IMG/VR virus record: IMGVR_UViG_3300032249_001318
Coordinates: 1 to 41,906 of that record
Source of the DNA: a virus
Direction: 5' to 3' (one strand)
Length of the DNA stretch: 41,906 nucleotides
The position numbers and the translations under genes were made by a program. The notes beneath the pieces are model-generated. The model did not search any database. It saw only the letters and a program-made list of their open reading frames with translations, and was not told where the DNA came from. Positions 7,739-20,773 of the stretch are shown here, piece by piece. Position 1 is the first letter of the stretch, and each line of letters starts with the position of its first letter.

Positions 7739-7957
7739 ATGATTTGTCATCAACATTCAGTTGATGACTTTCAATTGCAAATTGATATGTGCTCACTTGA
7801 GCTATCTATGTTGTGCGGTGATGAGGAAGTTGCTCCTTATCAGGTCAAGCAAATGGAAGACCTTGAGAATAAAAAGCTCAAGCTGATGGCCGGCAAACGG
7901 TTTCATACTAATGCCAAGAATGCCTATTGGTATTATGGTATTAAAGCTGATAAGTAA
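7739..7957 (+). CDS. Hypothetical 72-aa protein, start uncertain
   Basis: Open frame downstream of the Gp157-like gene. The conserved-looking part is MICHQHSVDDFQLQIDMC to the YYGIKADK end. The ATG at 7739 does not overlap the upstream gene; GTG at 7733 or an ATG at 7577 (which would overlap Gp157 by 128 bases) are alternatives. Helical, mixed charge, ending in an aromatic YWYYG. No family recognised. Confidence 0.5.
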   Translation: MICHQHSVDDFQLQIDMCSLELSMLCGDEEVAPYQVKQMEDLENKKLKLMAGKRFHTNAKNAYWYYGIKADK

Positions 7958-7991
7958 ATCAGTTTAAAGTAGTACAAACACAAGGGGTACC

Positions 7992-11450: not shown

Positions 11451-12077
11451 CTATACGGTAATTGTCTCGTACAAAAAATGATTAGACGTTTCAATCATAC
11501 GTGAATTTTCAACGCTGTACTCAGTCATGTCAATCTCATAACCAGGATTTTTTTCAATCCTGTTTTTAAGCCAGGCATCATCGTACCAAATGATTCGGTT
11601 GTTGGGGTAAGCATAAAAATTACCGTCATCCATTCGGAAGAAATGCGCACACTTGTGCTCAGGTGTTTCACTGAAATTAGTATTGAGAGTTGACTTGGAT
11701 TCCCAGGACCAATCCATAGTGAACATATAGATGCCACTATTTTTTTCACCTTTGAAATTAATTAGCTGTGCACGTAAATTTGAAAGGCGTGCCCTGACTT
11801 GTACATCAATATACGGAGAGAAACAATCCCACCACATGCACTCATTTAGTTCCGGTTTAGGTGCGTCTGGTTTCCAGCAGAGGGCATGAATGGGACGCCT
11901 TGTCCAGTTAACTCCATTCTCTAGAAACACTTCAAACAATGGGACGTGTTTCTCTAATGATGCAACAGAGTGTACGTCACATAACGTTACATGACCATGC
12001 CCCTGCTTGTGGTTATATAAGAATTCATTTCGTATGTAGCAAGTAAATGTTGGAAGGTTGTGATTTAAGTAGCTCAT
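11451..12077 (-). CDS. Conserved phage hypothetical protein, 208 aa
   Basis: The start MSYLNHNLPTFTCYIRNEFL followed by IHALCWKPDAPKPEL, CMWWDCFSPYIDV, MFTMDWSWE and HKCAHFFRMDDGNFYAYP is a pattern I associate with conserved, uncharacterised cyanophage and proteobacterial phage proteins. Many aromatic residues and Cys/His, no membrane segment. Ending VENSRMIETSN. No function known. Upstream lies a 58-base gap to the DUF5872-like genes. Confidence 0.6.
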   Translation of the reverse strand: MSYLNHNLPTFTCYIRNEFLYNHKQGHGHVTLCDVHSVASLEKHVPLFEVFLENGVNWTRRPIHALCWKPDAPKPELNECMWWDCFSPYIDVQVRARLSNLRAQLINFKGEKNSGIYMFTMDWSWESKSTLNTNFSETPEHKCAHFFRMDDGNFYAYPNNRIIWYDDAWLKNRIEKNPGYEIDMTEYSVENSRMIETSNHFLYETITV

Positions 12078-12135
12078 TTAATTTGTTAAAGCCCGTTTAC
12101 TGTAGCGTGCCTAACGGGTGCCAGGGCTATGCAGG

Positions 12136-12345
12136 TTACTTATCTTTATGTCGTTTGGCTGCACGAGCTGCCTTACCAGCTTTTTTTGCTGTCTCTGTGT
12201 TAGGTACAAATTGTTTTCCTTCTCTACTACCAACGCGTTTCTTGCGGTCAGTTTCTTCTCTTTCTTCTTTGGATAGAGAAGCCCATGCTTTTTCTGGCAG
12301 GTAACGTTTTGTGTATCCGTCTTGGATTGCTTTATCACTTGCCAT
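12136..12345 (-). CDS. DUF5872-like protein, C-terminal part (separate gene)
   Basis: A 69-aa, very basic protein: GYTKRYLPEKAWASLSKEER, RKKRVGSREGKQFVPN, then TAKKAGKAARAAKRHKDK. This resembles the second half of the DUF5872-type protein found in giant viruses and cyanophages. There it normally follows, in the same polypeptide, the sequence encoded by the upstream gene. Here the ATG lies inside the last codons of the upstream gene (ATGGCAAGTGA: start and stop overlap). Probably DNA-binding by composition; function unknown. Confidence 0.65.
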   Translation of the reverse strand: MASDKAIQDGYTKRYLPEKAWASLSKEEREETDRKKRVGSREGKQFVPNTETAKKAGKAARAAKRHKDK

Positions 12346-12619
12346 CTTGATACCTCTTTGCTGCTGACTTAGCTTTAGAGCGTTTCTCGTATTCGTCTTT
12401 GGTCTGCCACTTTTCCTTGCCCCATTTTTCTAGTGATTTTTGCCCTTCGCCTTTGCCACCTTTGTACCCACCGCCAGCTTTTTCATATTCTTGTGTTAAA
12501 AGTTGACTTCTTCGCGCACTCCATTGGCCGGGCTTACCTCCTTTGGATCCTGCCATTATGCGATCTTTAATGTTCTCACGTAATTCAGGTTTAGTATATT
12601 TGCTGTTGTCTTGTGCCAT
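12335..12619 (-). CDS. DUF5872-like protein, N-terminal part
   Basis: A 94-aa basic protein starting at the ATG at 12619: KYTKPELRENIKDRIMAG, then SKGGKPGQWSARRSQLLTQE and AGGGYKGG. This is the N-terminal half of the DUF5872-type sequence as I remember it. A longer frame begins 45 bases upstream, but without good codon evidence. It ends in an overlap with the C-terminal-half gene, so the two should be translated in equal amounts. The split may reflect a frameshift or a genuine gene fission. Confidence 0.65.
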   Translation of the reverse strand: MAQDNSKYTKPELRENIKDRIMAGSKGGKPGQWSARRSQLLTQEYEKAGGGYKGGKGEGQKSLEKWGKEKWQTKDEYEKRSKAKSAAKRYQDGK

Positions 12620-12668
12620 TAACTTATTTCTTTCTTCTATTTTACTCGGTATTGTTATTAACAATTAA

Positions 12669-12738
12669 TCAACGCTCCTGGAATCGAACCAGGTACAGAA
12701 CTCCTTGTCGGATTGCCTAACCATTTGGCTTAGCGTTG
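12669..12738 (-). tRNA. Aberrant tRNA-like gene, identity not assignable
   Basis: On the minus strand there is a 7-bp acceptor stem (CAACGCT with AGCGTTG), a D arm (GCC, a 9-nt loop AAATGGTTA, GGC), and a perfect T arm (CCTGG-TTCGATT-CCAGG), with A at the discriminator. The anticodon arm does not fold properly: AATCC with GAGTT forms at best a stem with one C-A mismatch and a 6-base loop (GACAAG), lacking U33. No CCA is encoded. The gene looks decayed or unusual, and I assign no amino acid. Confidence 0.55.
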
Positions 12739-12739
12739 A

Positions 12740-12884
12740 GGTGCGGGTCCCTTCCCCGCTGGGTTCATTTATAAGGTTAATGAACGCACCCCTCCGTTTA
12801 GCCGGAGGTACACTGTAAGGAGCGACCTTACATGTGAGGAGCTACCTCGGAGTTGACGCGCCGCCTTCTGGGCTATGAGCCCAA
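12740..12884. other. Hairpin array beside the tRNA-like gene
   Basis: A run of short inverted repeats: GGTGCG/CGCACC enclosing TTCATT/AATGAA (12740-12790); CCTCCG-TTTAGC-CGGAGG (12791-12808); TGTAAGG-AGCGA-CCTTACA (12814-12832); GAGG-AGCTA-CCTC (12836-12848); and CTGGG-CTATGAG-CCCAA (12868-12884). On the minus strand the last is TTGGG-CTCATAG-CCCAG, an exact-looking Met-tRNA anticodon arm (anticodon CAT), but no D or T arm is found around it. No gene. The remaining gap to 13008 shows only a weak GGAAGT/ACTTCC hairpin. Confidence 0.5.
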
Positions 12885-13008
12885 CGCGCTACGCAGTCAT
12901 CGGTAATATCATAACAAAAAATCTCCGGGTGTCAAGCTGGGGATCAGTAGATTTACTTACCGCTTCCACTCGGTTTTTACAGGGAAGTTGACTACTTCCG
13001 GTAGAAGT

Positions 13009-14025: not shown

Positions 14026-14859
14026 GTGACCACTCCCAGGAATTCCAGCCTTAAGGTATGGGAACCCACGCTTCAAGTACTGAATAAGAACCCTGTACGC
14101 ATTACGTTAAACGGAAGGCGGCACTATACCACACCGTTAGCACAAGGTGCAGCGCCATCGGTTACTACAATTCTTTCGCAGACCGCATCAGAAGCAAACA
14201 AGCAGAAGCTTGAGATGTGGTCTAAGAATAATCCAGGTGTGAAAGAGGCTGCTGCTGAGAGGGGTACAGCTATACACTATGGTATGGAGTGTTACTGCAA
14301 AAAAATTCAACATGAAGTTCCAGAGGAGTATGCGGATTTTTGGACGGGAATGCCGTCGATATTGGATCAATTTGAAGAATTTATTTGGGCGGAATCCCCG
14401 CTATTGGAAAAACATCAGTTTACTGTTGGCAGTGATGATGTGGCTCGTGTTTGGGGTTGCGACGAAGCAGGTCGTGCTTGGGCCGGTGCTCCTGATATTA
14501 TTGGCGTTGTGGGCGGTAAATTGACGCTGGCTGACTTAAAAACTTCGGTCAAGCCATACAGCAGGAAGTGGCCAAAAGATTTGGAGAAGGGGTCTCCAGA
14601 ATGGAGAGACCTGTTGGGTGGTCACCTAAAGTTTAAAAAAACCTGCAAACAATTGGCTGCTTACGATCTTGGGATTGAACAGACGTTGGGGATGAAAGTC
14701 CAGCAAGCTGCCATATTAGTATCAACGCCTTTGCGTACACAGGTTTTTAAAATTTCACGTCGGTTTTTGGATATGCTGCGGACTGACTGGCTGGCGCTAG
14801 TAGCGGAGTACTATGCTCAAGTAGATGAGTATGGAATGCAAGACCGAGATTTAATTTAA
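14026..14859 (+). CDS. PD-(D/E)XK exonuclease, RecB/Cas4-like
   Basis: A 277-aa protein with GTG start. The motifs of the RecB nuclease fold are in order: ERGTAIHYGMECYCK (motif I, E/His region near residue 78), GAPDIIGVVGGKLTLADLKT with the G-x-D and D-x-K pair (catalytic Asp about 151 and the DLK triad at about residues 165-170), and KKTCKQLAAYDLGIE (the Q-x-x-x-Y motif, about residue 211). Cyanophages of the T7 group carry a similar exonuclease that digests DNA for nucleotide salvage or recombination. Located upstream of the primase-helicase. Confidence 0.8.
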   Translation: MTTPRNSSLKVWEPTLQVLNKNPVRITLNGRRHYTTPLAQGAAPSVTTILSQTASEANKQKLEMWSKNNPGVKEAAAERGTAIHYGMECYCKKIQHEVPEEYADFWTGMPSILDQFEEFIWAESPLLEKHQFTVGSDDVARVWGCDEAGRAWAGAPDIIGVVGGKLTLADLKTSVKPYSRKWPKDLEKGSPEWRDLLGGHLKFKKTCKQLAAYDLGIEQTLGMKVQQAAILVSTPLRTQVFKISRRFLDMLRTDWLALVAEYYAQVDEYGMQDRDLI

Positions 14860-14914
14860 GAATTGCCGTTGGCTAGGGAGCTGTAGGATAAAGAGAACAA
14901 CAGCGCCCAATACC

Positions 14915-15100
14915 GTGGAGATCCAACTTTCTGTTGGTGAGTGGATGAATGCGCTTCAACGTCACATGGCAAATGCGGCGGACGGGGATTGCTTTTGCCT
15001 GCCAACCGACATCCATCTTCATGCGTACTGGCTGGTGAAGGACGCGTCGTTCCCACAACGGCAGTTTAGAGTAAAGAGAGTTGACCCGGTAGAAGCATGA
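14915..15100 (+). CDS. Hypothetical 61-aa protein
   Basis: GTG start giving MEIQLSVGEWMNALQRHM; ATG at 14945 is an alternative. The stop overlaps the primase-helicase ATG by the usual ATGA arrangement, which strongly suggests coupling. Ends FRVKRVDPVEA. No domain recognised. Confidence 0.55.
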   Translation: MEIQLSVGEWMNALQRHMANAADGDCFCLPTDIHLHAYWLVKDASFPQRQFRVKRVDPVEA

Positions 15101-17760
15101 GCAACGGAACCAAGCTGGCCCTCCGGGCAGGTGAGATTAACTTTAGTTACATTCCCCAAGATTGGCCCCTGACCCCACTAGGCGGTAATAAAAATCCTTA
15201 TGTTGATGGTTGGCAAAATAAACCTTTTAGTATTCGGGAAATTGAAGAAGAGATCGCTGGTGGTCAATGCAAAGCCATTGGACTCATTAGTGGCCCTGTC
15301 TTCAACTTGCCTTTTGGTTTGGTGTGGGTGGACGTGGATGGCGCAAGCGTATATCCCCTTATCGAAAGAATCACAAACAAAAGTTTTGCCGATGCCCTAC
15401 CAAGGACGCTAACTATTTGTAGTGGTAAGCCTGGCAGGGAAAGGCGTCTGTATCAGATTGCACGTGAAAAGCAACAGCATTTTGTTCGTAACAAATATAC
15501 ATGGCATGCTGAGGAGAAGGGGGAGAAGCTAGAGATTCTTTGGTCTAGGCACCAGGGTGTATTGATGGGTTTGCATCCTGAAACGGATGGATATTTTACG
15601 CAAGAGGGGATGGGGTTTGAATGGGTGGGCAACCTTCCGGAATTTCCGGAGTGTTTGTTGAATGAAATTATCACAAAGAATGTAAAGCAAGGTGTGCCTG
15701 CCAAGGAGGTGACCAGGTTTGTTGGTCAAAACTTTGCAATTAATGCAGAAGTTTCTTTGGAACGGGACATGCAGCTTGCAGTGGAAGCAATGCATGCACT
15801 GCCTGCAGAAGCAGCAGATGACTATGACATTTGGATCACCATAGGACAAACGTTGCATTCACTGGATGAATCGCTGCTGGATGAATGGGATGAATGGTCC
15901 AAGCAAAGTGATAAGTATGTAGATGGTGAATGCCATAGGCGTTGGCTTTCTTTTAGCAAGGGTGGTGGACGCGGCATTGGTTCACTTTTCTACATTGCAA
16001 AGGAACACGGATGGTCTCCTCCGCAGGACCATAAGGTAAAAACTGTTGACGATGAACAGCTTGAAAAGCTAGCAAAGCTACCCACTGATATGGACACATT
16101 GGAAATGGAAGCAATTTTGAAAAACGTAATGCCTCAGGCTGCCAAGGCTCCGGTAGCAACCGTTGTGCAAGAGAAAAGAAAGCCTGGTCGGCCACGTAAA
16201 AATACAGAAACTAATGAGCAAAAACAACGTGGTCGTAATGCATCTTCTGATCTTGTTACAGAGATGTTGCTGCAGATGTACCAGGGGGATTTGTTGTTTA
16301 GTTTGAAGCACAATCAATTCTTTATGTATGAAAGGGAAGGGCTGGGTCTTTGGTCTCCCATGAGTAAGGTTGAAATGGCTGGGGATATTCGTAGCAAACT
16401 ACTGCAAGTTCGTGATGAAGGGGAGTTGATTGAAGGGTTCAATACTAAGTTGATTAATGATGTGTATGAGCAATTGCAAGCAGCACTCTACTTTAAAGAG
16501 TGGTATGAAGAAAGCCGTTACCTGTTATTTACCAATGGGGTATTAGATATTGAGACCAGGGTATTGCTTCCTTTTAACAGAGAACTATATTTGACACAGC
16601 AACAACCTTACGCATATGATGCAGCCGCTACGTGTGAAGAAATTGTTAAATGGCTAAAACATGTGCAGCGTGATAGTTGGAATCGGACCCAAGTATTACG
16701 AGCTTGGCTGCGGGCAACACTGCTTGGTCGCTACGAGATGCAGAAGTTTGTTGAGATTGTTGGACCAGGAAAGTCTGGTAAATCAACCTATGCAAACTTG
16801 GCTGTAGCACTGGTAGGCAGGAAGAATGTGTACTCAACTGACTTTGAAAACCTGGAGAAGAATAGGTTTGAAGCAGCGGGATACATGGGTAAAAAACTGC
16901 TGCTGTTCCAGGATGCTGATCGTTGGGGCGGATCTGTTTCTCGGTTGAAGGCAATTACGGGCAGTGACTGGATTCGATCGGAACGTAAGTATCAAAATGA
17001 GAATCAAGAGCCATTTCAATTTAAAGGTGTTGTAATTATTACGGCAAACGAAGCCATTCAGTCAACAGACTATACGTCAGGCCTGGCCCGTCGTCGTCTT
17101 ACTATTCCTTTTGACCGCCCGTTCACGGGCGGGCCTAATGAACAAAAAGAATTGATTAAGTTTAACCAGAAGGGTGAACCGGAGGGTGAGTTTGCTCCGT
17201 TGCTGCCAGGGTTGGTGAACTGGTTATTAGATATGTCGGAGGAAGACATGAGGAGTTACCTGATGGAAACCTCTAAGAAAGTGGAGTTCTTCCGTAAGTA
17301 TGAGAAGATGCAGAACTTGCGGTCCAATCCATTGCTTGATTGGCTGGAACATAAGGTGATCTATGACCCAGGGGTGGCTAGTGCAATTGGTTTTACAAAG
17401 AATGCGCCTATGGGATCTTCACATATCTATGCCAACCAGGAGAAGTGGTTGTATGCAAGCTATGCAGAGTTCAGTAGGCAGTGCAATGTAGGTGTGCTGT
17501 CACGTAGTCGTTTTGAAGTGTTGCTAATGGATATCTTGACTCATCAGTTGAATTTAAAAGTGATTAGTAAGCGTACTACTAGGGGTGTTCGCATCATTAA
17601 TGTGGCGGTGCGTGAGTCTAGTCCTAAGTATGAGGGGTGGCCAAGCGTTGTTGAGGTTACGTCTGATTGGCAGAAGTACAAAGAATTTTATGGTATTGAT
17701 ATTAGTGCGGATTCTGGTGCGAAAATAGAAGATGAATATGAGTTAGAGACTGATGGGTAA
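15097..17760 (+). CDS. Primase-helicase: PrimPol plus PriCT plus SF3 helicase
   Basis: An 887-aa replication protein. Residues about 15-160 match the bifunctional primase/polymerase domain (AIGLISGPVF, WVDVDG acidic pair). Residues about 225-315 resemble PriCT_2 (DYDIWITIGQTLHSLDE, WLSFSKGG, GIGSLFYIAKEHGW). Residues about 360-370 carry an AT-hook-like KPGRPRK. The SF3 (D5-type) helicase follows: Walker A GPGKSGKST about residue 555, Walker B LLLFQDAD about 600, and motif C VVIITANE about 645, with the SGLARRRLTIPFDRPF segment next. In T7, primase and helicase are a different (DnaB-type) pair, so this phage is not a simple T7 relative. It primes and unwinds DNA for the family A polymerase. 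Overlaps the next gene by 8 bases. Confidence 0.9.
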   Translation: MSNGTKLALRAGEINFSYIPQDWPLTPLGGNKNPYVDGWQNKPFSIREIEEEIAGGQCKAIGLISGPVFNLPFGLVWVDVDGASVYPLIERITNKSFADALPRTLTICSGKPGRERRLYQIAREKQQHFVRNKYTWHAEEKGEKLEILWSRHQGVLMGLHPETDGYFTQEGMGFEWVGNLPEFPECLLNEIITKNVKQGVPAKEVTRFVGQNFAINAEVSLERDMQLAVEAMHALPAEAADDYDIWITIGQTLHSLDESLLDEWDEWSKQSDKYVDGECHRRWLSFSKGGGRGIGSLFYIAKEHGWSPPQDHKVKTVDDEQLEKLAKLPTDMDTLEMEAILKNVMPQAAKAPVATVVQEKRKPGRPRKNTETNEQKQRGRNASSDLVTEMLLQMYQGDLLFSLKHNQFFMYEREGLGLWSPMSKVEMAGDIRSKLLQVRDEGELIEGFNTKLINDVYEQLQAALYFKEWYEESRYLLFTNGVLDIETRVLLPFNRELYLTQQQPYAYDAAATCEEIVKWLKHVQRDSWNRTQVLRAWLRATLLGRYEMQKFVEIVGPGKSGKSTYANLAVALVGRKNVYSTDFENLEKNRFEAAGYMGKKLLLFQDADRWGGSVSRLKAITGSDWIRSERKYQNENQEPFQFKGVVIITANEAIQSTDYTSGLARRRLTIPFDRPFTGGPNEQKELIKFNQKGEPEGEFAPLLPGLVNWLLDMSEEDMRSYLMETSKKVEFFRKYEKMQNLRSNPLLDWLEHKVIYDPGVASAIGFTKNAPMGSSHIYANQEKWLYASYAEFSRQCNVGVLSRSRFEVLLMDILTHQLNLKVISKRTTRGVRIINVAVRESSPKYEGWPSVVEVTSDWQKYKEFYGIDISADSGAKIEDEYELETDG

Positions 17761-18112
17761 TGGCCGTCACTTAATCCTAGATCTGTATGGCTGCAATGCA
17801 GAGATCTTGAATGATTACGAAGAGCTTAAGCGATTTTTGGAAATTGCTCTGGTGCTGGCCAAGGCTAATATCCTGCGAATTTGTGGCCATAAATTTGAAC
17901 CACAAGGGGTTACATTGTTGGCATTACTCTCGGAATCCCATGCCAGCATTCACACCTGGCCTCAATTAGGTTATGCAGCGATTGATTTGTATACCTGTGG
18001 GGATACTACGCAGACGCATAAAGCGGCTGAGTTTTTAAAGAAAAAACTTCAAGCAGAAACTGCGGACGAAAGAGAATTACGTAGGTCCACAACATTGTCC
18101 AATAAGCTATAG
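17753..18112 (+). CDS. speD: S-adenosylmethionine decarboxylase proenzyme
   Basis: A 119-aa SpeD of the bacterial class 1b size. The self-cleavage site is intact: Glu61-Ser62 in SESHASIHTWPQ, with Ser62 becoming the pyruvoyl group, and the other conserved residues H67 and C82 (in TCGD) are present. The start HLILDLYGCN and GHKFEPQGVT are also typical. The enzyme decarboxylates SAM to provide aminopropyl groups for spermidine. The gene overlaps the primase-helicase by 8 bases, so it is expressed with replication genes. speD is a known auxiliary gene of cyanophages; a role in DNA packaging or host stress is plausible but inferred. Confidence 0.92.
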   Translation: MGNGRHLILDLYGCNAEILNDYEELKRFLEIALVLAKANILRICGHKFEPQGVTLLALLSESHASIHTWPQLGYAAIDLYTCGDTTQTHKAAEFLKKKLQAETADERELRRSTTLSNKL

Positions 18113-18135
18113 TAAATCGAGAATTATCCGATTTA

Positions 18136-19410
18136 ATGGCTAAACCTAAACTTTTGTGGTGTGGTGACATTGTTGCCATGACGGGATTTGCCCGTGTCAC
18201 AGAAAATGTGCTGGCAAGATTGTCTGATCAATATGAGATTGTGGTGCTGGGCCATAACTGGTGGGGGGACCCGACGCCACTGCAGGATCAGTACAAAATG
18301 TATCCGTCATCTAATCGTTTCCAGACGGCGCCTTTTGGTGAAGATCGCATTAGGGAAGTAGTGGAGAAAGAAAAGCCAGACATTGTGTTTACCATCAATG
18401 ATATGTGGATTATTAATGAGCAGTACAAGCGCATTAAAGATTTACACGACCAGAAGCTATTTAAGTTTGTGGGGTATGCCCCCATGGATTCGTATGGGTG
18501 GACTGGGTGCCTTGATGAGACCGCCAACAATTGGGATGGTGTTGTTTCGTATACGGAGTTTGGTGCGCACGAATTTATTCGAGGAGGAATTAAAAAACCA
18601 ATCACAATTATTCCGCACGGTATTACGGCAAATCAGTTTTATCCCATGGATAAAGCAGAGGCACGTAAGCGGCTCAGTTTGAAAGACGATATTTTTATTG
18701 TGTTTAATGGGAATAGGAATCAGTTCCGCAAACGCATTGATATTACGGTTGAGGGTTTTGCAAAATTTGCAAAAGACAAGCCGGATACTCAGTTGTACCT
18801 GCATATGGGGTTGAAGGACCAAGGGTGGGATCTAATGCCTTTGTTTGCCAGGGCAATGCAGAGGGAGGGAATTGATCCCAATGGTCGCATCATCCTTACG
18901 GCGCAGACCGGTGGGCCGCCAAATGTAGAGGTTGATTTTTTGAATGCGATCTACAACGCGGTTGACGTAGGTGTAAATACCTGTAAAGGAGAGGGCTGGG
19001 GGCTGGTGTCCCATGAACATGCTGCCTGTCGTGTGCCTCAGGTGGTGCCGAACCATACGTCATGTAAGGAGATCTTTGAGGGCTATGGGCGCCTTATCCG
19101 CTGCGACCACGTCGATGTAGATACCAACTACGCAAGGGAGATGCCCTGCCCCTCCAGTGACCACCTAGCAGCCATCCTGACGGAGCTGTACGAGGACCGG
19201 GAGAAGCTGGATGCTACGGCTGAGCTGTGCTACCTGCGGGCCACAGAGGAGCGTTTTAGCTGGGATACGATCGCCCATCAATTTGATGAGGTGTTCCAGG
19301 AGACCCTTAACGCCCAAGCCGCTAGTGATGCGACGCAGAGTGAGACGCAACCTAAGAAGAAGAAAAAGGGTAAGCCGGTTAAGCGATCGGTTTATTCGGA
19401 AAGGGAATAA
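18136..19410 (+). CDS. GT4-family glycosyltransferase
   Basis: A 424-aa GT-B fold enzyme. The N-terminal domain starts LLWCGDIVAMTGFARVTENV with the G-F-A/S motif of the acceptor domain. The linker GYAPMDSYGWTG and SYTEFGAHEF follow. The nucleotide-sugar domain begins IIPHGITANQFYPM and continues FNGNRNQFRKRIDITVEGF and GEGWGLVSHEHAACRVPQVV, the E-x7-E nucleotide-binding motif. The C-terminal 30 residues are a Lys/Gln/Ser tail (PKKKKKGKPVKR). Likely modifies phage DNA, a virion protein or host surface glycans; the acceptor is not known. It is followed by a strong terminator. Confidence 0.85.
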   Translation: MAKPKLLWCGDIVAMTGFARVTENVLARLSDQYEIVVLGHNWWGDPTPLQDQYKMYPSSNRFQTAPFGEDRIREVVEKEKPDIVFTINDMWIINEQYKRIKDLHDQKLFKFVGYAPMDSYGWTGCLDETANNWDGVVSYTEFGAHEFIRGGIKKPITIIPHGITANQFYPMDKAEARKRLSLKDDIFIVFNGNRNQFRKRIDITVEGFAKFAKDKPDTQLYLHMGLKDQGWDLMPLFARAMQREGIDPNGRIILTAQTGGPPNVEVDFLNAIYNAVDVGVNTCKGEGWGLVSHEHAACRVPQVVPNHTSCKEIFEGYGRLIRCDHVDVDTNYAREMPCPSSDHLAAILTELYEDREKLDATAELCYLRATEERFSWDTIAHQFDEVFQETLNAQAASDATQSETQPKKKKKGKPVKRSVYSERE

Positions 19411-19436
19411 CGGTCAATTATTAAGAAAACAAGTGG

Positions 19437-19462
19437 GCCTCCACGGAAGTGGGGGCTTTTTT
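19437..19462 (+). terminator. Strong intrinsic terminator after the glycosyltransferase
   Basis: GCCTCCAC-GGAA-GTGGGGGC (8-bp stem with one G-T, GNRA loop) followed by TTTTTT. It is nested within the further inverted repeat CGGTCAATT (19411-19419) and AATTGACCG (19471-19479). Ends the plus-strand unit from 14026. Confidence 0.85.
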
Positions 19463-19478
19463 GTGGGTGAAATTGACC

Positions 19479-19744
19479 GACTCTGCGGACTTTAGGATGC
19501 GACTTTGGCGACTTTGTGGACTTTAGGGGTCGTTCCAAAAACTATGCCTAGCAAATTACAAGAAAATTCCAAGTTGTCATTTTTGTTGCGGATTGTTAAT
19601 TCTCATAATTGTTACAAAACAACACAACCATTACAACTTGGAATTTTTTTGTAATTTGCTTAGGAGAGTTTTTAACTTGACCCCTAAAGTCCGAAGAGTC
19701 GCATCAAACTCTGCACATAAGCCCTAAAGTCCGGTGCTAGAGTC
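19479..19744. repeat. 266-bp imperfect palindrome with iteron-like GACTTT repeats
   Basis: The inner arms (19547-19577 and 19633-19664) pair over 31-32 bases with one mismatch and one bulge, separated by a 55-base AT-rich centre that itself has AATT-CTCAT-AATT at the midpoint. Further out, GGACTTTAGGGGTC (19518-19531) matches GACCCCTAAAGTCC (19679-19692) exactly. Further out again, GGACTTTAGG (19487) pairs with CCTAAAGTCC (19723), and GACTCT (19479) with AGAGTC (19739). The left arm has four direct GACTTT repeats at 19488, 19501, 19510 and 19519 (spacing 13, 9, 9). The rest of 19411-19733 holds only the terminator. A replication origin or a recombination or mobile element end are the leading options. 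Confidence 0.8.
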
Positions 19745-20090
19745 CCATGACACCACCAATTTTCCCGTGCCAGCTCCCGTAAAAAGCCTTCCACCCCTGG
19801 AGGACCTACAAAAAATTGTTCGGTTATCGGACGCCTATCCCTCAGGCCTGGAGTGGGCCGTCAGTGACCGTTGGAGGGAGGAGGGGAGGCAGGCTGGTGC
19901 GCTTTCCAGGCCCAACCCCTACTACGTCGTCAGGCTCTTGGGAGGCAAGTATGTGGCCCATAGGATCGTCTACTACATGCGGACGGGCAGGGACACGCCC
20001 AAGGAGATCCTGCACTTAGCAGACAACCTTGAACGGGACAACCGCAGGGAACTAGTTGAAAACACCCGTGGCGCCAGGAAGGTAGGTTGA
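19734..20090 (+). CDS. HNH-type endonuclease with an altered D-H motif
   Basis: A 118-aa protein. The N-terminal region (SLPPLEDLQKIVRLSDAYP, SGLEWAV) resembles the N-terminus of the HNH protein at 24975-25505 (PLPPLHELQTVFSLTEDHP, CGLIWKI). The HNH region is HRIVYYMRTGR, then ILHLADNLERDNRRELVENT: a first His, the second His and Asn are visible, but the Asp that normally precedes the second His is Leu. The GTG start lies in the outer arm of the palindrome; GTG at 19767 is an alternative start. May be inactive or a divergent variant. Confidence 0.6.
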   Translation: MLESHDTTNFPVPAPVKSLPPLEDLQKIVRLSDAYPSGLEWAVSDRWREEGRQAGALSRPNPYYVVRLLGGKYVAHRIVYYMRTGRDTPKEILHLADNLERDNRRELVENTRGARKVG

Positions 20091-20095
20091 TTGAT

Positions 20096-20773
20096 ATGGC
20101 AAACTTATATAAACCAGCCCAACCCCAACTTCTTCGTTATGTGAATCTTATTGATTGTCTTGACGGATTCCAGCTTGAAAATGAAGGGTACTATCGCGGT
20201 TACCCCTGCCCCCACGGGCATATTATTCGGGACATTGAACATCACTGGTGTTACCACTGCGCCAGAAAAATTAGCTCCAACGTTTGTGGCTTTGACGTAA
20301 ACTATCTTCACAAAGGATACAAAGTGAAGTATGCCAATCTCTGGCACAAAATAAACATTGGTTTTCCTGAAGACTGCTGGGAGTTCAAAAGTACTGGCAG
20401 CCATACTCCCAAAAGAGTTTGCATTCCCTCCTATCGCTCTGGTTATAGCAAACAAAAATCTGAAAACGTCAACGTACACAAGGCGTTATATCAGTGCGCT
20501 TGGGGAGATGTTGGTTCTCTACTGGTGACCAGGGTATGCAGCAATTCAAAGTGTTGCAATCCGTTACATATGGTTTCCACATTAAATACTGCTGCTGCGC
20601 CACCACAGTCTATTGTTCCCTTTGAGATTGATTTCAAAGCAGAAAAATTAATGTTGTTTAATCGCCAGGGATTACTCAATAATCAGCCAGAAAAAATTGT
20701 AGAAGAATCATTTAAACACACTATAACAAACCCATTGTATGCCAAGGCTCCTCCCGAGTATGACGAGGGGTAG
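20096..20773 (+). CDS. Zinc-binding HNH-like endonuclease (His-Me finger)
   Basis: A 225-aa protein. N-terminal zinc site CPHGH, then HHWCYHCARKI. Then SNVCGFDVNYLHKGYKVK, CWEFKSTG and RVCIPSYRSGYSKQK. Then NVHKALYQCAWGDVGSLL, VTRVCSNSKCCNPLHM. The last is the zinc-binding loop pattern (V-C-x(n)-C-C-N-P-x-H) of phage His-Me finger nucleases. The whole pattern recurs in cyanophages as I recall. Starts at the ATG at 20096, 5 bases after the previous stop. The 3' end carries a partial match (CCCGAGTATGACG) to the early-gene upstream motif. May be a homing or structural nuclease. Confidence 0.65.
   Translation: MANLYKPAQPQLLRYVNLIDCLDGFQLENEGYYRGYPCPHGHIIRDIEHHWCYHCARKISSNVCGFDVNYLHKGYKVKYANLWHKINIGFPEDCWEFKSTGSHTPKRVCIPSYRSGYSKQKSENVNVHKALYQCAWGDVGSLLVTRVCSNSKCCNPLHMVSTLNTAAAPPQSIVPFEIDFKAEKLMLFNRQGLLNNQPEKIVEESFKHTITNPLYAKAPPEYDEG

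Follow-up and report, generated by a model that had tools for sequence, protein, structure and literature searches.

The window analysed here is the whole of an IMG/VR virus record (IMGVR_UViG_3300032249_001318; 41,906 bases) from an uncultured freshwater virus related to the cyanophage S-EIV1 of Synechococcus; among cultured phages, S-EIV1 has the replication protein closest to that of the window (55% identical). The element under study is a long imperfect palindrome with its exact symmetry centre at position 19605. Encoded upstream of it on the same strand are an exonuclease (PHROG 298), a replication protein of PrimPol-PriCT_2-D5_N-SF3 architecture, an S-adenosylmethionine decarboxylase and a glycosyltransferase. 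The glycosyltransferase gene is followed in order by an intrinsic terminator, the palindrome, an HNH open reading frame (ORF) that starts with GTG at 19734, and the ORF of a zinc-finger/His-Me-finger protein at 20087. In each of the 23 records searched, both the glycosyltransferase and the zinc-finger protein had orthologues, and the terminator words GGGCTTTT recur in relatives at the place that matches the window terminator.

Geometry of the palindrome

An ungapped inverted-repeat search returned arms of 79 nucleotides (nt) each, 80% complementary and separated by a 37-nt spacer. With gaps allowed, 109 of 122 positions were paired (89%), with a score of 113.5 against a shuffle maximum of 32, and the best palindrome score was 39; six random sequences with matched composition reached 11.5-12.5. 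Shuffles folded at -25.9 +/- 4.0 kcal/mol on average, and the single-stranded DNA itself at -73.4 kcal/mol (z = -12). These values exclude chance as the source of the palindrome and confirm that it is real. Recomputation reproduced what a first-pass annotation, made from the letters alone, had described: the nearly perfect inner run, the exact outer block of 14 base pairs (GGACTTTAGGGGTC/GACCCCTAAAGTCC), the distance of 1.7 kilobases (kb) from the end of the SF3 primase-helicase gene, four GACTTT repeats spaced by 13, 9 and 9 bases in the left part, and the GTG start of the next gene, which lies at the outer edge of the right arm. Mirrored AAAGTC copies in the right arm had been overlooked, as had the terminator (Table 1). 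The repeat GACTTTAGG forms inverted sets with four occurrences at the site; three genomes of the clade were examined (the window, G003 and G004), and none of them has it at any other place. The most AT-rich 100 nt of the interval from 13 to 24 kb (19556-19655; GC content 0.27) fall on the palindrome, of which the window holds no second copy.

Table 1. Positions in the window of the palindrome, its parts and the flanking features
Feature	Position	Strand	Details
PrimPol-PriCT_2-D5_N-SF3 helicase replication protein, proposed initiator	15097..17760	+	Pfam Prim-Pol, PriCT_2, D5_N, DUF5906
Intrinsic terminator of the upstream operon	19435..19458	+	Between genes and palindrome
Left iteron block	19478..19529	+	GACTTT at 19488, 19501, 19510 and 19519, within CGGACTTTAGG/GCGACTTTG units
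Left arm of palindrome	19508..19586	+	Ungapped inverted-repeat search
AT-rich centre, candidate unwinding element	19587..19623	.	GC minimum spans centre and inner arms
Right arm of palindrome	19624..19702	+	Ungapped inverted-repeat search
Right iteron block, mirror orientation	19681..19733	-	AAAGTC at 19686 and 19726; CTCTGCAC at 19709-19716
Zinc-finger/His-Me-finger protein	20087..20773	+	Orthologue in every record searched; adjoins palindrome

Conservation of symmetry among relatives

Relatives of the primase were gathered in two scans, and the slot downstream of the PrimPol-SF3 gene and upstream of the zinc-finger gene was measurable in 97 loci, which include some contigs fetched twice and so are not all independent. 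For each locus, 12 control stretches were scored alongside the slot. The slot palindrome outscored the maximum of its own controls in 90 of the 97 loci. Thirteen records (42-85 kb) were scanned from end to end, and in each of them it was the best palindrome. The cultured phage S-EIV1, whose host is Synechococcus sp. PCCC-A2c, also carries it, around positions 7840-7960 of its record (KJ410740). The words GTCTCA, GTGCAGAG, GACTTT and CTCTGCAC are enriched in the slot across the family; distant clades gave no match to the GACTTT-type repeat of the window clade. In the slots of most relatives, including a clade in which the long stem is missing, the short inverted motif GTCTCA-nnn-TGAGAC lies near the palindrome.

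Between clades the palindromes, compared by eye, could not be aligned, although each is symmetric and the flanking genes are kept. Within clades, independent change would predict 23.7 changes on both sides that keep the pair; 85 were counted, in a tally of sequence pairs that are themselves not independent. One-sided breaks (688 of 4695 cells) far outnumber these paired changes, so the symmetry is maintained loosely and not base by base. Mismatches in the stems comprised 60 G-T and 77 A-C, with neither strand favoured, and because they show no G-U preference the symmetry looks like a property of the DNA and not of an RNA. A structured RNA made from the region would explain the very stable fold, and one sub-threshold match to a plant microRNA, due to the long hairpin, was returned by Rfam; however, Rfam gave no family at threshold, one-sided breaks are common, and on the symmetry of the mismatches we rejected this reading, which we regard as very unlikely.

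The same comparison bears on a mobile-element remnant (a miniature inverted-repeat transposable element or a homing insert), as would be suggested by terminal inverted repeats next to an HNH gene. The first-pass annotation had itself named two findings that would favour such a remnant, namely relatives lacking the arms and a transposase-flanked copy elsewhere. Relatives instead keep the element at the matching place, and neither a copy elsewhere in the window nor a transposase beside the palindrome was seen. Moreover, the clades are without sequence relation in this element, and the HNH gene was missing in 7 of the first 22 relatives while the palindrome was still there, so that this gene lies outside the element. 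An ordinary insertion or HNH-linked mobile element is refuted by the occurrence of the palindrome without the HNH gene and by the lack of copies elsewhere in the window, and a remnant of this type is extremely improbable.

A candidate replication origin of the stem-loop kind

In our preferred interpretation, with a probability of roughly 0.68, DNA replication in this phage lineage starts at the palindrome, which would belong to the stem-loop origins that have been proposed for replicons with PrimPol-SF3 proteins. The first-pass annotation had already proposed an origin, based on the palindrome and its GACTTT iterons; the origin proposal is favoured by the position kept in relatives and the absence of a second copy, whereas the iterons are mainly a property of the window clade and the stem-loop is the feature that extends across the family. 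Further points in favour are the rank of the element as best palindrome of each record scanned whole, the symmetry kept with loss of sequence, the excess of paired changes, the mismatch pattern, the repeats confined to the site and the AT-rich core. The PrimPol-SF3 protein would bind the site, in the window clade by way of the GACTTT-type repeats, whose two sets lie in inverted orientation on either side of the AT-rich middle, and two helicase hexamers would assemble face to face. The AT-rich middle would then open, or the arms would extrude as hairpins, and the Prim-Pol domain would prime on the exposed single strand; we infer the melting, the priming and the direction of replication alike. 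Opening and priming by this protein are proposed because of parallels with the plasmid pRN1 and the phage BPP-1, the relationship to the SaPI5 protein, and a possible winged helix at the C-terminus.

The SaPI5 primase-helicase (7ola) was the only solved sequence relative found for the replication protein and was also among the top fold matches, and a P4-family primase model matched below the cut-off. The Pfam search gave no match to the C-terminal part of the protein. In a moderate-confidence model, residues 785-838 are predicted to run helix-helix-strand-strand (H785-796, H803-817, E823-827, E830-838), which could be a winged helix.

In the Sulfolobus plasmid pRN1 (replication protein ORF904), a stem-loop of about 100 nt located 3' of the PrimPol-SF3-winged-helix gene is needed for replication, a compensating change rescues broken stem symmetry, and across the pRN plasmids the fold of the stem-loop is conserved while its sequence is not (PMC4234260). 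The window shares with pRN1 the large stem-loop 3' of a PrimPol-SF3 gene, the terminator between gene and stem-loop, and the retention of structure with loss of sequence among relatives. The pRN1 stem has 21 nt and a loop of 58 nt at 75 C, as compared with about 120 gapped pairs, or the 79-nt ungapped arms, in the window. Unlike in pRN1, two genes intervene in the window, repeats flank the core, the helical domain is PriCT_2, and the element is a candidate origin only.

A stem-loop behind the replication gene was also pointed out in Bordetella phage BIP-1 (PMC4234260). In the near-identical BPP-1, our analysis located a long stem-loop about 0.5 kb 3' of the primase gene, with short repeats in its arms as in the window, and it is the strongest palindrome of a 7.5-kb stretch. 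The replication proteins of BIP-1/BPP-1 and the window have the same order of domains (Prim-Pol, PriCT_2, D5_N, DUF5906) but are only about 22% identical, and the stems have no common sequence. Whereas the BIP-1 proposal rests on one phage type (PMC4234260), the window lineage offers about 90 related loci. The origins of phage-inducible chromosomal islands (PICI/SaPI) and of SCCmec elements have been described on a basis other than a long stem (PMC6092414, PMC7581432). Unlike these, the two repeat sets of the window mirror each other within one continuous palindrome, and the PICI/SaPI arrangement of an iteron origin directly 3' of the rep gene is absent from the window, where the decarboxylase and glycosyltransferase genes intervene. 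In Serratia phage Smarc4 (L197, 8227-8470), a Prim-Pol/D5 primase gene is followed after 108 nt by a long palindrome with arms of 66 nt, which is possibly another origin of the stem-loop kind. In phages 9NA and Tbat2_2 the inverted repeats are weaker and lie about 4 kb beyond a D5-type primase, and Alteromonas R9Y1 and Escherichia Pondi, also with D5-type primases, gave no inverted repeat of note, so a palindrome behind the primase is not a general rule. Around the element, no useful nucleotide similarity to cultured phages was found.

Several observations weigh against an origin. Two genes separate the palindrome from the primase gene, and where the gene order is changed (L043 and others) the palindrome follows the HNH/zinc-finger genes and not the glycosyltransferase on the primase side. 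One primase clade (11 loci, L176-L189) and the single loci L114, L137 and L185 are without a strong palindrome. In the same slot, several members of that clade have 12-15 nt inverted repeats that enclose a loop of 145-146 nt, and several retain the GTCTCA-TGAGAC flanking motif; given this clade and the weak loci, the long stem is dispensable in some members or replaced there. In pRN1, specific protein binding to the stem-loop was not seen (PMC4234260). Finally, GC skew, suggested in the first-pass annotation as a check, does change at the palindrome, but with a sign opposite to that of a simple bidirectional origin or the usual leading-strand bias, and the segment concerned spans only about 5.5 kb (exonuclease to glycosyltransferase).

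The skew was calculated at fourfold sites of the sense strand. In 10 of 13 genomes its value left of the palindrome is about +0.1 to +0.33; right of the palindrome and over the remaining genome the skew is negative. Genes in window 14026-19410 have a value of +0.31, and the other genes, in the window and in relatives, are negative. The change coincides with the palindrome and also with an operon boundary. Because the segment is limited and a simple bidirectional origin would give the opposite sign, we rejected GC skew as proof of an origin; it is ambiguous and was counted neither for nor against.

Skew of this sign would suit a replication terminus, or a recombination or packaging site, at which forks would stop or a phage nuclease would cut the hairpin. 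Two further observations are consistent with such a site, the nuclease-like gene adjoining the palindrome and an inversion of the palindrome middle. The middle (window 19540-19670) has opposite directions in the window and L041 on the one side and L039, L040 and L042 on the other, with the outer flanks keeping their direction; in the closer pairs the inverted match covers 79-82 of 89 positions versus 61-64 for the forward match. This comparison of sequences therefore indicates that the arms have recombined at least once, and one event only was seen among alignable pairs. However, the neighbouring nuclease-like protein is without the expected catalytic His, the second, HNH gene is frequently missing, S-EIV1 has its terminase gene far from the palindrome, and contig ends are not clustered there. 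We consider a terminus, recombination or packaging site improbable.

The zinc-finger neighbour and its bearing on the palindrome

The zinc-finger gene is always beside the palindrome, even with changed gene order; in L043, L115, L122, L123 and L161, the two together precede the glycosyltransferase gene. Its protein gave weak zf-His_Me and HNH profile matches as well as matches to PHROG endonucleases. The structure model resembles I-PpoI and Smad MH1 without significance, and had no confident match in the PDB. Active His-Me-finger enzymes carry H-x-C ahead of a CxNPxH motif. Nearly all members of this family have R-x-C at that place, which suggests that the protein is likely catalytically degenerate; because of this replacement it may bind DNA without cutting, as a putative partner at the palindrome.

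Such a protein could also be the regulator in a transcription control region. In that case the palindrome would be a boundary element or a group of operators ahead of the zinc-finger operon, and its inverted sites would be bound by a regulator of the phage, perhaps by the zinc-finger protein. The location directly behind an intrinsic terminator and ahead of co-directional genes is in keeping with this, as are the association of palindrome and zinc-finger gene across altered gene orders and the apparent DNA-binding, non-cutting character of the protein. Regulators, however, usually have several sites whereas these repeats occur nowhere else in the genome, arms of 60-130 nt far exceed operator length, and turnover of sequence with kept symmetry is unlike a fixed operator. 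A search limited to sigma-70-like promoters found none. We judge a control region unlikely.

A further reading, also unlikely, is an extruded cruciform. Its hairpins would be the initiation substrate, its arms would recombine and flip the middle, and the degenerate His-Me-finger protein would be a hairpin- or junction-binding partner; the origin would then be recognised by its shape more than by its sequence. For the origin interpretation more broadly, how PrimPol-SF3 phages choose a start site is poorly known, and the stem-loop suggestion of 2014 rested on the pRN plasmids and one phage type. Stem-loop origins are a kind already known and sparsely studied, to which the window lineage would add a variant. 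The lineage is a widespread one made up of uncultured freshwater phages, with S-EIV1 as its one cultured relative, and its roughly 90 natural variants, with shape kept and sequence lost, make it directly testable if the initiator responds to the shape, to the sequence or to the two together; the element could also be an origin marker for metagenomic phages. Elsewhere in the window, positions 12001-13000 have a strong AT skew of -0.31, which differs from the remaining window.
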